Shown in pieces: positions 31,010 through 37,830 of a stretch of DNA of 64,000 nucleotides (positions are counted from its first letter, which is position 1; each line of letters starts with the position of its first letter). The stretch spans positions 114,451 to 178,450 of the forward strand of contig JANXXU010000007.1 in assembly GCA_025350465.1 (NCBI GenBank), read 5' to 3'. The position numbers were made by a program, and so were the translations under genes. Under the pieces are notes generated by a model, which was not told the DNA's origin, ran no database searches, and saw only the letters and a program-made list of their open reading frames with translations. The stretch is from Alphaproteobacteria bacterium (GTDB lineage: Bacteria > Pseudomonadota > Alphaproteobacteria > Micropepsales > Micropepsaceae).

Positions 31010-31678
31010 ATGAGGCCGATTTTCATCACCGCGACCGGAACCGACGTCGGCAAAACCTACGTTACCTGCGCCTTGATCCGCGCCCTCAAACGCGCGGACG
31101 TTGAGGTTGCCGCATACAAACCCATCATCAGCGGGTTCGACGCGGACGAAGTTGCGGCCAGCGATACTGGGCGGATTCTCGCAACGCTCGGCCGGCGCTC
31201 CGACAGTCAATCGGTCGCGACGATTTCGCCTTGGCGCTATCGCGCCCCGCTATCGGCCGAAATCGCAGCAGAACGCGAGGGGCGAACGGTGCCGTTCGAC
31301 GAGGTGACCGCCTTTTGCAAAGAAGCGGCCGCACGCGCGCCGGGGGTCTGTTTGATCGAAGGCGTAGGTGGCGTGATGTCGCCGATCGATCGTACGCGGA
31401 CGAACCTGGACCTGATTGTCGCGCTGAAGGCAAGACTGCTCCTCGTGGCGGGAAGCTATTTGGGAACAATCTCGCATGTTTTGACCGCCGTTGAAGCACT
31501 GCACGTTGCAGGCGCCGATACCTTGGCCATCGTGCTCTCGGAGTCTCTATCCTCGCCGGTCGCGCTCGATGAGATCTCGAAGCGTATGGCCAGCTTCACG
31601 CGCGTGCCGATCGTTGCCATCGCGCGCGGCGAGGAGGCGCCGCCGGCGCTCGTCGATCTCATTGAAGCTAGGGCTTGA
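31010..31678 (+). CDS. bioD: Dethiobiotin synthetase
   Basis: 222 residues from ATG 31010, four bases after the bioF stop; the track ORF extends back through bioF. P-loop FITATGTDVGKTYV at the N-terminus, IEGVGGVMSPID as the DAPA/carbamate-site loop, and a TSN-like later region. It closes the ureido ring of dethiobiotin with ATP and CO2. The 3' end overlaps the convergent L,D-transpeptidase gene by 11 bases. Confidence 0.93.
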   Translation: MRPIFITATGTDVGKTYVTCALIRALKRADVEVAAYKPIISGFDADEVAASDTGRILATLGRRSDSQSVATISPWRYRAPLSAEIAAEREGRTVPFDEVTAFCKEAAARAPGVCLIEGVGGVMSPIDRTRTNLDLIVALKARLLLVAGSYLGTISHVLTAVEALHVAGADTLAIVLSESLSSPVALDEISKRMASFTRVPIVAIARGEEAPPALVDLIEARA

Positions 31679-32168
31679 TCTCGATCGGCGTCCCGACGGG
31701 GACCAGCGTGTAGATTTCCTCGATCTCGGTATTGCGTACGCCGATGCAGCCCGCGGTCCAATCGGGATGGCTGCCGGCATCTTGTATTTCTTCAATGAAC
31801 TCGGGCGTGCCGTGAATGGCAATCAGGCCGCCCAAGCGAATGCCGTGCAGCTTCGCCGCGAGGCGGTCGCTCTTGTTTGGATATGAAATGTGCAGCGCGC
31901 GATGGAATTCGCTGGCAGGGTTCTTCGCGTCGATGATGTAGCTGCCTTCGGGCGTTCGATCGTCTCCGCCGCTCTCCTTGTTACCCGGGGGGCCGACGCC
32001 AATGGCGACACGGTAGGTCTTAACCACTTTTCCCGCCGCGAACAGCGTCAGAATGTGCGCGGACTTCTCGACAATAATACGATCGACCTTGGCGAAGCTC
32101 TCGGCCTCAGCGAAGCCGGACGCCGCGATGAACGCGAGGATCTGGGCGACAAAGCAAATAACACGCAT
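31668..32168 (-). CDS. L,D-transpeptidase (YkuD family), exported
   Basis: 166 residues. Signal peptide MRVICFVAQILAFIAASGFAEA, then the YkuD domain with the catalytic pattern H119 (LIAIHGT) and C141 (DWTAGCIGVRN). It is a minimal single-domain form, like proteins annotated YafK/ErfK, that may make 3-3 peptidoglycan links or attach or cleave cell-wall proteins. It lacks a LysM domain. No good Shine-Dalgarno site precedes the ATG. Confidence 0.88.
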   Translation of the reverse strand: MRVICFVAQILAFIAASGFAEAESFAKVDRIIVEKSAHILTLFAAGKVVKTYRVAIGVGPPGNKESGGDDRTPEGSYIIDAKNPASEFHRALHISYPNKSDRLAAKLHGIRLGGLIAIHGTPEFIEEIQDAGSHPDWTAGCIGVRNTEIEEIYTLVPVGTPIEIKP

Positions 32169-32361
32169 TTGGAGGTTTCTTGAAAAAAGCCCTACCTATC
32201 GTCGCAGGCGTTGGCAGCGACCGCAAAGTTGCCATGATGTGCGCATTGCCGCAATCTCCGGCAATTCAGTCATGCTAGGTTCAGGTCAATCATGTGACTT
32301 CTAGCATCTCTCGCACACGGCTCGAGCCGTTGCGCAACACCGAAACAAGAGGACTGCAAGT

Positions 32362-33159
32362 ATGCGACTTACGACTGCGCTCAGCGTCGCCGTGATCTCA
32401 GGCGCGCTATCACTTATTGGTGGAACTGCAAGCGCTGACCCATCGCCGGGCGGAAGCTACCGCGCCACCTGTAACGGCATCAATGCCGAGCGAGGCACGC
32501 TGTCTGCCACATGTCGCACGCGCGACGGCCGTTGGAACGACACCGAGCTCGATCGCTATCGCGATTGCTCGGGCGACATCGCCAATATCGACGGGCAGCT
32601 ACGCTGCTCGCGCGGCGAAGACGACGGCGACCGCTGGGGCGGCGATCGTGGCCACGGTGACGATGGCGACCGGGGCGACGATCATGGCGGCGGCTGGACG
32701 CCGCGCGGCTCCTACCACGAGACGTGCCGCAACGAAGGAGCCAGTCACGGAACGCTGAGGGCTGAGTGTCGCGATCGCTCGGGGCGCTGGCGCTACTCGG
32801 AGCTCGAGAACTTCCGCTCGTGCGACGGCGACATCTACAACGACAGCGGCATACTTCGCTGCCGGCATGGCGACGACGACCGTTCGGGCGACCGCGGCTA
32901 CGGCCGGGCGCAGATCACGCTCTACAAGGACTCCGACTATCGCGGAAGCTCGCGCACATTCGACAGTGACGTCCCGGATTTGAACTCATACGGATTCGGG
33001 AACGCCGCTTCGAGCGCCAATGTGCGCGGCGGTGCGTGGCAGCTCTGCAGTCGGCCCTACTATCGCGGCCGCTGCGTAACCATCGACCGCAATGTCAGGA
33101 ACTTCGACGGAACCGGGCTGAACGACGAGATCGAGTCGCTTCGCCCGCTCCGGCGTTAG
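32362..33159 (+). CDS. Secreted double CVNH plus beta/gamma-crystallin protein
   Basis: 265 residues. Signal peptide (1-25), then two cyanovirin-N homology units: 31-82 (GSYRATCNGINAERGTLSATC) and 116-167 (GSYHETCRNEGASHGTLRAEC), each with four cysteines (C37/51/69/82 and C122/136/154/167). A Gly/Asp/Arg linker (84-112) separates them. Residues 183-263 are a beta/gamma-crystallin unit with two Greek-key halves (ITLYKDSDYRGSSRTF, WQLCSRPYYRGRCVTI). CVNH domains bind mannose glycans and beta/gamma-crystallin units often bind calcium, so an envelope or extracellular glycan-binding protein is likely (inference). AGAGGA lies nine bases before the ATG. It stands alone. Confidence 0.85.
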   Translation: MRLTTALSVAVISGALSLIGGTASADPSPGGSYRATCNGINAERGTLSATCRTRDGRWNDTELDRYRDCSGDIANIDGQLRCSRGEDDGDRWGGDRGHGDDGDRGDDHGGGWTPRGSYHETCRNEGASHGTLRAECRDRSGRWRYSELENFRSCDGDIYNDSGILRCRHGDDDRSGDRGYGRAQITLYKDSDYRGSSRTFDSDVPDLNSYGFGNAASSANVRGGAWQLCSRPYYRGRCVTIDRNVRNFDGTGLNDEIESLRPLRR

Positions 33160-33195: not shown

Positions 33196-33233
33196 AGAGA
33201 GGCCGGGTGTGGGACATCCGGCCTCTCTCCGTT
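33196..33233 (+). terminator. Terminator-like hairpin after the CVNH/crystallin gene
   Basis: AGAGAGGCCGG pairs perfectly (11 bp) with CCGGCCTCTCT around an 11-base loop, followed by TCCGTTT. The T-tract is weak but the stem is strong. Confidence 0.6.
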
Positions 33234-34135: not shown

Positions 34136-35077
34136 ATGGAATATCGCCAGTTAGGGCATTCGGGCCTCAAAGTTTCCGCCGTCGGTCTCGGGTGCAATAA
34201 TTTCGGACGGCGCTGCTCGGAAGAAGAAACGCGCGGCGTGGTCCACAAGGCGCTCGACCTTGGCGTCACGATGTTCGATACGGCCGATTTCTATTCAGCC
34301 GGTTTGTCGGAGGAGTTTCTCGGCAAGGCGCTGGGCGCGCGGCGCAAGGATATCGTGCTGGCGACCAAATTCGGCTTGCCGCTGCGCCAGGGTGCCTATG
34401 AGGGCGGCGCGTCGCGGCGCTACATCATGGTGGCGATCGAGGCGAGCCTAAAGCGCCTCGGCACGGACTATATCGATCTCTACCAATTGCATTTTCCGGA
34501 TGCGAAAACGCCGATCGAGGAGACGCTGTCGGCGCTCGATTCGCTCCAGCGCGCCGGCAAGATTCGTTATGCAGGCTCGTCGAATTTCAACGGTTGGCAA
34601 CTGGCGGACGCCGCATGGACGGCACGGACGAAGGGTCTTGGGCCGTTCATTTCGGCACAGAACCACTACAACCTGCTCGACCGGCGCATCGAGCGCGAAG
34701 TGGTGCCGGCGGCCGAAGCGTTCGGCGTCGGCGTCATTCCCTATTTCCCGCTCGCATCGGGCCTACTCACGGGCAAGTACAAACGCGGTGCGCCGGTGCC
34801 GAACGACTCGCGCGCAGCGGCAAATCCCGATGCCGCGAGGCGTATGCTGAGCGATGAAAATTTCGCGACCGTCGAGAAGCTCGAGGACTTTGCGCGGAGC
34901 CGCAGCAAAGGCATTCTTGACGTCGCCGTGAGCTGGCTTCTCGGTCAAAGGCAGGTCGCCACCGTCATCGCCGGCGCGACGAAGCCCGAGCAGGTTGAGG
35001 CCAACGTCCAGGCCGGCGCGTGGGAGATGCCGCGCGCCGACTGGGAGGAAATCAACAAATTGACCCTGCGATTGTGA
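34136..35077 (+). CDS. Aldo/keto reductase (voltage-channel beta / YghZ-like branch)
   Basis: 313 residues from ATG 34136. TIM-barrel NADPH oxidoreductase: the catalytic tetrad is D and Y in FDTADFYS, K in LATKFG and H in LYQLHFPD. The C-terminal cofactor region is VIAGATKPEQVEAN. It probably reduces small aldehydes. Its stop overlaps, as GTGA, the start of the MFS-kinase gene, so dienelactone hydrolase, reductase and kinase may share a transcript. Confidence 0.9.
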   Translation: MEYRQLGHSGLKVSAVGLGCNNFGRRCSEEETRGVVHKALDLGVTMFDTADFYSAGLSEEFLGKALGARRKDIVLATKFGLPLRQGAYEGGASRRYIMVAIEASLKRLGTDYIDLYQLHFPDAKTPIEETLSALDSLQRAGKIRYAGSSNFNGWQLADAAWTARTKGLGPFISAQNHYNLLDRRIEREVVPAAEAFGVGVIPYFPLASGLLTGKYKRGAPVPNDSRAAANPDAARRMLSDENFATVEKLEDFARSRSKGILDVAVSWLLGQRQVATVIAGATKPEQVEANVQAGAWEMPRADWEEINKLTLRL

Positions 35078-37830
35078 ACTCTCACGACCCCAACGCCGAA
35101 GCTGAGTTCCAGCAAGCTGTCGCGAAAAACCTGACTCGCAATTACGTGAGCCAGCTGATGCACGGCATGTTGGCGATGACGGGCTTTCGGCTCGTGAACA
35201 CGCCGACCTTTGTGCCGGTGTATCTCTACGTGCTGTCCGGTTCGCCGATGGTGGTGGGCGCAGTTCTTGCCGCGCAACAATTGGGCGCCTTCGCCTCGAG
35301 CCTGATCGGCGTCACGATGATCGAGCATCGACGCCGGATTCTGCCGCTGGGCTTTCTCTATGGCTGGATGATGCGGCTCGCCGTCTTAGGCTTGGCGCTT
35401 GTCTCGTTCTTCGTGCCGCAACCCTATTCGCTTTGGGCTTTCGCGTTCTGCCTCGGCCTGCTTGGTGTCTTCTCCGGCATGCAGAATGTGCTGTGGAATG
35501 TGCTCCTGACCAAGACTATTCCCGCCAACCGGCGCGGCATGCTGATCGGGGCGCGAAATTTCCTCGGCGGCATGACGGCTTCGGCAGTCGCCTATGGCGG
35601 GGGAATTCTCGTCCAGCAAAATGCCTTCGGCAACGGTTACGCGACGACGTTTCTGGTGGCCTTCGTGCTGACGGCACTCGGCTTGACGCTGCTTAATCTG
35701 GTGCGCGAGCCGGACGCGCCGGCGGTGCGCCCGATGTCGAGCGTGCGGCAACGAATTCTCGATGTGCCGCTGATCTTGAAAGAGGATCGGCAATTCGCGC
35801 TTTATTTTTTCGCGCAGGCCTTGGCGACGTTGGGCACGCTGGCGCTGCCGTTCTATATCCTGTTTGCCGGCAAGAGACTTGGTCTCACCGGCGAAACCTT
35901 GGGCATGCTGTCGCTGGCCCTGCTTCTCTCGCAAACCGCAGCGAATTTGGTCTGGGGCTGGATCGCGGATCGCGCCGGTTTCAAGACGGTGTTCGTGCCG
36001 GCGCTGTTCTTCTGGGCCGGCTCGACGATCGCTCTCGCATTCTCCGCAACGCCGCTCTCGATCCTTTTGTGTTTCATCGGCATCGGCGCCGGCAATGCCG
36101 GGTATCAGATCGCCTCGCAGAACATGGTCATGGAGTTCGGGACGCGCGCCGATCTCCCGTTGCGTTTGGGGATGGTTAACTCGGCGCAATCTTTGGTGAT
36201 GGCAATAGGTCCGCTGCTCGGCGGCGAACTCATTCAAACCTTGGGCTACGAAGCTGTTTTTGCAGCAGCCGCGCTTGCTATGTTGGCTGCCGCTGTCATG
36301 CTGCTGGTCTATGTTCATGAGCCGCGGCGAAGGTCCCTGGGGGAGGGGATTGTCGATGCGAGCCAGGGTTTGACGATGAGTGTGAGTGAGGAAAGCGCGA
36401 GTTTCCCCGGCGCTACGGGACAACAGGGCACGGCGCGCCGCCAAACGAAGGCGGCCGGACGGGTTCCAGCGGCAACGACGCAGCGCTCACCCCTTAGGGT
36501 TCGTGCCGGCGATATTACTTGGACGCTTGTTCCTGCCCTTGGCGCTTTGGCGATCCTAGCCCTATGGAGCCCCGCGCAGTGGTTCTTCTGTTTGGTGCTG
36601 GCGGTTGCGATTGCCGCGGTTGCCTTCGCGCGATTGGGTTTTGTTCGCAGTTTGCCGGGACCTGCGGTTGCGGTCGCAGCTTCCGCTGCCGCCGACGCGA
36701 GCGGCGGCGAGACTGCCTTCACCCGCTCGCCGGATGATTTTTCGATCGCCGACGTCGTACAGCGCCTGCCGGATCCGGTGATCGTCACCGATCAAAACGG
36801 CCGCATCGTCGCAGCAAACGCCGCCCTTGAAAATCTGTTCGGCGTCGCTGAGCCGCGAAAGCATCTGGCGAGCATCATTCGCGCGCCACAGGTGCTCGAG
36901 GCTCTCGATGCGGCGCTGGCCGGAAAGGGTTCGCAGCGCGCCGAGTTCTCGATGATCTCGACGCCGGAGCAGAATTTTCAGGCCTATATCGCACCCGTCG
37001 AAGGCGAAGAAGGACACCCGCGCGCCGCCCTCATCGTGCTGCAGGACATGACGAAGGCAAAACGCGTCGAACAGATGCGCGCGGACTTCGTCGCCAATGC
37101 CAGCCACGAGTTGCGCACGCCGCTCGCCTCGCTCACCGGTTTCATCGACACGTTGCGCGGGCACGCGAAGGACGATCCCGAAGCGCAGGAACGCTTCCTG
37201 GGAATCATGGCGGAACAAGCCGCGCGCATGCGCCGCTTGATCGACGACCTCCTGTCGCTGAGCCGCATCGAATTGAACGAACATGTGCGTCCGTCGGGCA
37301 GCATCAATTTGGGCGACGTCATCGAGGAGGTGACGAACGCGCTGACCCCGGTTGCGGAAGCGGCAAACATGACGATGGATCTCGTCGAGCCCTCATCGCT
37401 GCCGAACGTGGCGGGCGATCGCGAGGAACTGATTCAGGTTTTCCAGAACCTCGTCGACAACGCGATCAAATATGGCAAGCCCGGCATGCCGATTACGGTC
37501 GAGTTGGGCACAAGGCGCGCCGGCCCCGGCGAGGCCGGGCCTTCTCCGGCCGTCTACGTCGCGGTCAAAGATCACGGCGAAGGCATCGCCCGCGAACATA
37601 TTCCGCGGCTGACCGAGCGGTTTTATCGCGTGGACGTCAGACGCAGCCGGGCGATCGGCGGCACCGGGCTTGGCCTTGCGATCGTCAAACATATTCTGAA
37701 CCGTCACCGCGGGCGCCTCGCCATCGAAAGCAAAGTCGGCGAAGGCTCGACGTTTACCGTGTTCTTGCCGCTCGCGACGGAATCGGGACCGGCGGAAACG
37801 ATGCCGGCAGGCCTCCTGACTGCTTCCTAG
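35074..37830 (+). CDS. MFS transporter fused to PhoR-like histidine kinase
   Basis: 918 residues from GTG 35074, overlapping the upstream stop (GTGA); the track uses a GTG 18 codons earlier inside that gene. Residues about 25-415 are a 12-helix MFS protein (NRRGMLIGARNFLGG, DRAGFKTVF). A charged linker (416-480) leads to two further helices (481-523), as at the start of PhoR, then PAS (557-662), HisKA with H678 (NASHELRTPL) and HATPase with N796 (NLVDNAIKYG), FYRVD and GGTGLGLAIVK. No stop separates the halves. phoU and phoB follow, so this is the local PhoR, with the MFS part as likely input or transporter module (inference). An in-frame ATG at 36376 could give a free kinase. Confidence 0.85.
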   Translation: MNSHDPNAEAEFQQAVAKNLTRNYVSQLMHGMLAMTGFRLVNTPTFVPVYLYVLSGSPMVVGAVLAAQQLGAFASSLIGVTMIEHRRRILPLGFLYGWMMRLAVLGLALVSFFVPQPYSLWAFAFCLGLLGVFSGMQNVLWNVLLTKTIPANRRGMLIGARNFLGGMTASAVAYGGGILVQQNAFGNGYATTFLVAFVLTALGLTLLNLVREPDAPAVRPMSSVRQRILDVPLILKEDRQFALYFFAQALATLGTLALPFYILFAGKRLGLTGETLGMLSLALLLSQTAANLVWGWIADRAGFKTVFVPALFFWAGSTIALAFSATPLSILLCFIGIGAGNAGYQIASQNMVMEFGTRADLPLRLGMVNSAQSLVMAIGPLLGGELIQTLGYEAVFAAAALAMLAAAVMLLVYVHEPRRRSLGEGIVDASQGLTMSVSEESASFPGATGQQGTARRQTKAAGRVPAATTQRSPLRVRAGDITWTLVPALGALAILALWSPAQWFFCLVLAVAIAAVAFARLGFVRSLPGPAVAVAASAAADASGGETAFTRSPDDFSIADVVQRLPDPVIVTDQNGRIVAANAALENLFGVAEPRKHLASIIRAPQVLEALDAALAGKGSQRAEFSMISTPEQNFQAYIAPVEGEEGHPRAALIVLQDMTKAKRVEQMRADFVANASHELRTPLASLTGFIDTLRGHAKDDPEAQERFLGIMAEQAARMRRLIDDLLSLSRIELNEHVRPSGSINLGDVIEEVTNALTPVAEAANMTMDLVEPSSLPNVAGDREELIQVFQNLVDNAIKYGKPGMPITVELGTRRAGPGEAGPSPAVYVAVKDHGEGIAREHIPRLTERFYRVDVRRSRAIGGTGLGLAIVKHILNRHRGRLAIESKVGEGSTFTVFLPLATESGPAETMPAGLLTAS

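Follow-up and report, generated by a model that had tools for sequence, protein, structure and literature searches.

The closest described systems are lectins of the cyanovirin-N (CVNH) type, the beta/gamma-crystallins and one biofilm adhesin that contains both a lectin and a crystallin module. In cyanovirin-N (CV-N), site A comprises residues 1-38/90-101 and site B residues 39-89, with both sequence repeats contributing (PMC4926178), so that an isolated half may need a partner. Fungal type III CVNH-LysM lectins such as MoCVNH-LysM carry an insert between their CVNH repeats (PMC4392113, PMC4926178). Beta/gamma-crystallins from microbes and lower animals (PF00030; vibrillin, 2bv2) have two Greek keys per domain; the canonical calcium motif of the family is N/D-N/D-x-x-S/T-S, and vibrillin has two such motifs and binds calcium (PMC3551895). 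RbmC of Vibrio cholerae is a biofilm adhesin that combines a beta-prism lectin with a beta/gamma-crystallin and has been described as a "double-sided tape" that joins matrix polysaccharide to other surfaces (PMC10903470).

Here we analyzed a protein of 265 residues encoded in a 64,000-nucleotide stretch of alphaproteobacterial DNA (the window, meaning that whole stretch), in which CVNH-type repeats and a beta/gamma-crystallin domain occur in a single chain. The protein is like CV-N and microvirin (MVN; PF08881) in its half-repeat alignment, first cysteine pair and N-x-D-G hairpin, but differs from CV-N in an extra cysteine pair that brackets the hairpin in each repeat (C69/C82, C154/C167), in a four-residue insertion ahead of the hairpin, in a 33-residue linker where CV-N has a tight hinge, in the added crystallin domain and in a copy number that is free among its relatives. 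It shares an insert between the CVNH repeats with MoCVNH-LysM; here, however, the insert is a disordered linker rather than a LysM domain (Pfam gave no LysM match between the repeats), each repeat has four cysteines, and relatives show odd repeat counts. Its crystallin domain likewise has two Greek keys, but unlike in vibrillin both calcium motifs are broken. With RbmC it would share a secreted design of joined lectin and beta/gamma-crystallin modules, a parallel in design only, as RbmC has no CVNH repeats and the window protein has no beta-propeller or beta-prism. No description of the CVNH and beta/gamma-crystallin combination was found among the open-access papers searched, where the four co-occurrences of the two seem, by title, incidental. 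The families themselves are known; what is new is the behavior of the half-repeat and its fusion to a calcium-free crystallin.

Gene structure and predicted export

An earlier note, made from the sequence, had placed an open reading frame of 265 residues at 32362-33159, and it is present exactly there on the + strand, with the following features around it.

32347-32353, + strand: probable ribosome-binding site AAGAGGA, 8 nt upstream of the ATG, from the sequence
32362-33159, + strand: CVNH-repeat/beta-gamma-crystallin protein, 265 aa; intact open reading frame, conserved in relatives
32362-32436, + strand: probable Sec signal peptide, residues 1-25, judged by eye; the structural model has low confidence at this N-terminus
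33196-33228, + strand: perfect 15-bp hairpin without a T run, possible transcription end (z -2.6; 111-nt intergenic stretch)

The N-terminus reads MRLTTALSVAVISGALSLIGGTASA|DP and, judged by eye, resembles a Sec signal. The downstream hairpin begins 36 bases past the stop and, together with AAGAGGA 8 nt upstream of the start, indicates that the transcript probably comprises this single gene. The reading frame is not a product of chance, since its cysteines and its syntenic position are conserved in eight other genomes. The putative signal peptide and the domain families described below uphold the view of the earlier note that the product is an exported, lectin-like protein, in the sense that both export and sugar binding are predicted.

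Two four-cysteine repeats equivalent to one CVNH domain

The N-terminal two thirds of the protein are organized as follows.

32452-32607, + strand: four-cysteine CVNH half-repeat 1, residues 31-82 (repeat HMM 74 bits; aligns with CV-N residues 2-49)
32608-32706, + strand: disordered Gly/Asp/Arg linker, residues 83-115, 33 aa (pLDDT below 50 at 85-111; 8-131 aa in relatives)
32707-32862, + strand: four-cysteine CVNH half-repeat 2, residues 116-167 (repeat HMM 75 bits; aligns with the second half of CV-N, ETCRN)
32863-32910, + strand: short disordered linker, residues 168-183, from the model; site of the third repeat in three-repeat relatives

The earlier note had proposed profile searches for its two families, and both CVNH and Crystall score above their cut-offs. 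Pfam CVNH (PF08881) matches residues 33-165 with 41.3 bits against a cut-off of 24.5 (E 2.8e-10), and NCBIfam mannose-binding lectin NF052356 remains below its cut-off in the profile search of this protein (50.2 bits against 80). The CVNH profile crosses both repeats in one pass, from position 1 to 101 of 102, and in a phmmer comparison with PDB sequences each repeat resembles one half (about 48 aa) of cyanovirin-N and also of the mannan-binding lectin 2y1s. The "two CVNH domains" of the earlier note are thus two four-cysteine CVNH-type repeats (C37, C51, C69 and C82; C122, C136, C154 and C167), each being half a domain; by sequence comparison, the pair is one CVNH domain's worth, split by 33 aa. 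The term "bivalent" is plausible from two repeats, but two canonical CVNH domains, with four sites, are absent. The Gly/Asp/Arg linker that the note had described between the repeats is present and disordered in the model; RTX-like calcium binding by this linker was considered and rejected, as no regular nonapeptide was visible by eye.

The single pass of the profile through both repeats also counts in favor of the two repeats exchanging strands to form one CVNH unit; canonical CV-N and type III lectins operate in this manner (PMC4926178, PMC4392113), and the window protein has exactly two repeats. We regard this arrangement as rather unlikely, and one point against it comes from a fold comparison with the predicted structure. 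The AlphaFold2 model of the protein, computed with 10 sequences, has a mean pLDDT of 79, with values of about 83-94 in the repeats and about 84-96 in the crystallin, while the linkers at 85-111 and 171-180 fall below 50. The model shows the five-strand half-CVNH pattern twice with high confidence (in repeat 1, strands 37-43, 46-52, 58-64, 72-76 and 79-83), followed by a beta/gamma-crystallin fold, which agrees with what the earlier note had proposed to check by structure prediction. In a viral fold library, the two best matches of the model are CVNH proteins: one of 111 aa superposes over 57 columns at 1.6 Å, and one of 181 aa, which spans both window repeats, gives an rmsd of 15 Å over 157 columns (Foldseek), suggesting that the repeats of the model are not arranged as one rigid unit. 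In the fold search against the PDB, the best 50 matches listed are crystallins. A three-repeat relative that we also modeled is similar, at lower confidence (pLDDT 71).

Copy number of the repeats among relatives

We built a repeat profile from 60 repeats; since four cysteines were a condition of the search, their presence in all 60 is not in itself evidence. In 35 complete proteins, four-cysteine repeats occur in one (n=5), two (n=11), three (n=16), four (n=2) or five (n=1) copies, the number being odd in 22 of the 35; these sequences, like those behind the calcium-motif figures given below, are related rather than independent, and no p-value is attached to copy-number parity. Loci that are incomplete at their ends contain arrays of at least 12, and the linkers between four-cysteine repeats span 8-131 residues. 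The single-copy proteins represent three separate lineages: L096, the weakest case, which has no Pfam match of its own; L107-L109, which belong to one genus and count as one lineage; and L110, where the lone repeat lies beside a crystallin domain and exceeds the CVNH cut-off. Repeats with two cysteines or few (L072, L092, L102, L106, L111) always come in pairs, and the linkers are short wherever both halves scored; for one half of L106 and one of L111, which were below the length filter, the count was taken from the domain table. L105 is intermediate, with repeats of 3 and 4 cysteines.

As copies come in odd as well as even numbers, the four-cysteine repeat seems to need no intramolecular partner, and the half-repeat is probably a self-standing bead; strand exchange between two molecules is a possible alternative pairing. 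Exchange between the two repeats of one chain is made less likely by three repeats in seven of the eight syntenic orthologs, by one repeat in five proteins and five in another, and by linkers that vary from 8 to 131 aa.

Two further architectures were observed among these loci. Open frames of 1228-1336 aa at L076, L077, L099 and L100 (G015, G020 and G023) consist largely of four-cysteine half-repeats, with at least 12 in a row, and L106:1474-2886 (- strand) encodes a glycosyl hydrolase family 18 (chitinase/EndoS-like) domain together with a cysteine-poor CVNH domain.

Conservation of sugar-site residues

We take the sugar contacts of CV-N to be E41, N42, D44, E56, T57, T75, R76 and Q78. On this list, window residues N75 and D77 in repeat 1 are identical to the aligned N42 and D44, and E120, T121 and R139 in repeat 2 to E56, T57 and R76; these site B residues are kept in both halves, a point in favor of the two repeats forming one unit. 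A74, D138 and G141 differ from the aligned E41, T75 and Q78, and the window repeats may for this reason have lost sugar binding. At three positions aligned with CV-N contacts, N, D/N and T/S are kept in about 90% of the 60 repeats, a conservation that may be structural. We infer sugar binding by the window protein from its family and from this partial conservation of site residues.

Genomic context and distribution

Eight further genomes of the genus have the gene at this conserved locus, in the order divergent L,D-transpeptidase, gene, dienelactone hydrolase and MFS-histidine kinase gene.

31668-32168, - strand: divergent L,D-transpeptidase (YkuD) neighbor (PF03734; synteny in eight relatives)

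Among the syntenic orthologs, seven of eight have three repeats and one (L042) has two, as in the window protein. By tree and identity, the window repeats correspond to ortholog repeats 1 and 2, the nearest relative of repeat 2 being repeat 2 of the orthologs, and the third repeat type is missing. The closest paralogue within the genome, with three repeats and a crystallin domain, is 58% identical over residues 24-264. Of the genomes sampled, CVNH matches occur in 10 of 11 from the genus (the source genome included), in 25 of 96 from the order and in 12 of 389 from the class, a distribution that amounts to a lineage-centered expansion. A scan of genome contigs with the window protein alone gave no match, and the same scan with an alignment gave nine CVNH-crystallin relatives, all of them alphaproteobacterial MAGs. 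A mobile-element origin was dropped, since phage and plasmid collections gave just distant, mostly single-domain matches.

An explanation without sugar binding, in which the CVNH and crystallin parts would give the envelope stable, disulfide-rich modules with a structural or protective role, perhaps at peptidoglycan together with the L,D-transpeptidase, appears improbable. It would fit the conservation of that divergent neighbor in eight relatives, the partial retention of sugar-site residues and a crystallin that lacks calcium motifs. However, the biotin synthesis, dienelactone hydrolase and MFS-histidine kinase neighbors are also kept, a pattern that fits a stable region better than a pathway, and the roughly 90% retention of the three contact-aligned positions in 60 repeats speaks for sugar binding to the extent that it is not structural. 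No functional link to the L,D-transpeptidase is claimed, as its synteny is kept, but equally so for other neighbors.

Two observations concern the downstream genes. The 936-aa frame at 35020-37830 (+ strand) encodes an MFS transporter (MFS_1, 2.2e-29) fused to a histidine kinase of PAS-HisKA-HATPase architecture; it is one stretch in several relatives, and in G004 (L040) the halves match as separate overlapping pieces. An aldo/keto reductase at 34139-35077 (+ strand) separates the dienelactone hydrolase from the MFS-kinase gene; none of the eight syntenic relatives gave a match at this position.

A crystallin domain without canonical calcium motifs

32911-33153, + strand: beta/gamma-crystallin domain with two Greek keys, residues 184-264 (PF00030; fold match 2bv2)
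32998-33015, + strand: position of calcium motif 1, GNAASS, first residue not N/D, from the sequence
33121-33138, + strand: position of calcium motif 2, NDEIES, fifth residue not S/T, from the sequence

Pfam Crystall (PF00030) matches residues 184-262 with 56.7 bits against a cut-off of 25 (E 2.7e-15), and in the fold search the modeled domain superposes on the Ciona crystallin 2bv2 with a TM of 0.92 and an rmsd of 1.1 Å, confirming the two-Greek-key domain of the earlier note. The idea that this domain belongs instead to the I36 peptidase inhibitors, which share its fold, and that the protein guards the cell from proteases is very improbable, because the Inhibitor_I36 match (E 5.4e-4) reaches 20.3 bits, under its cut-off of 21.1, whereas Crystall, at 56.7 against 25, is well above its own.

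Sixteen further distinct crystallin domains are fused to such repeats among the relatives, so the combination is not unique to the window protein. Among the 17 distinct crystallin domains in fusion with CVNH repeats, 16 lack the canonical calcium motif, versus 7 of 31 unfused domains from the same searches (Fisher 1.7e-6, with the kinship of the sequences not corrected for). This loss is not absolute, since both canonical motifs are present in L110, a single-repeat protein outside the 17, and likewise in L054. The calcium-stabilized module suggested by the earlier note is unsupported, both window motifs being broken (GNAASS, NDEIES) and loss being the rule in fused relatives. In a separate observation, L054:5485-7308 (- strand) encodes a five-repeat protein whose crystallin, with its canonical calcium motifs, lies between CVNH repeats 1 and 2.

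In the tree, the crystallin at 32911-33153 (+ strand) is placed outside the clade that its syntenic orthologs form (99/100), and its nearest relative is the paralogue in the same genome (65%); the window repeats, by contrast, fit the orthologs. This placement may reflect an old conversion or a basal position in the tree; a recent gene conversion from the paralogue does not fit an identity of just 65%.

Proposed mode of action and implications

The reading that we prefer, and consider evenly balanced, is that the protein is an exported, multivalent glycan binder or cross-linker, made of beads and a calcium-independent crystallin cap, that acts on envelope or matrix polysaccharide. The signal peptide would be removed on export, leaving two beads of 52 residues at opposite ends of a flexible 33-residue linker, with the compact crystallin domain after the second bead. 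Each bead would be a CVNH unit of half size, formed by a three-strand sheet and a hairpin, with two predicted disulfides. One shallow sugar site per bead would allow two glycan chains to be bridged, or one surface to be bound with avidity. The crystallin would be a Greek-key cap that needs no calcium and forms a stable C-terminal module, possibly serving self-association or a second surface contact, and the most likely target would be the cell's own envelope or matrix polysaccharide. More tentatively, and with somewhat less than even confidence, we propose that the four-cysteine half-repeat, some 52 residues long, is a lectin bead in its own right. The second disulfide would staple its hairpin and make strand exchange of the CV-N type unnecessary, and bacteria would string such beads in any number from one to at least 12, adding a calcium-free crystallin cap in the window protein; we infer the autonomy of the bead.

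The census predicts that a lone four-cysteine repeat folds and that a lone two-cysteine repeat does not. The CVNH-crystallin protein would stand alongside RbmC as a second lectin-crystallin design. Cyanovirin-type lectins are of interest both for their antiviral use and as a model system for strand exchange. Should the half-repeat fold by itself, it would represent a disulfide-stapled lectin bead of very small size and would reveal how the exchanged fold originated or broke up.
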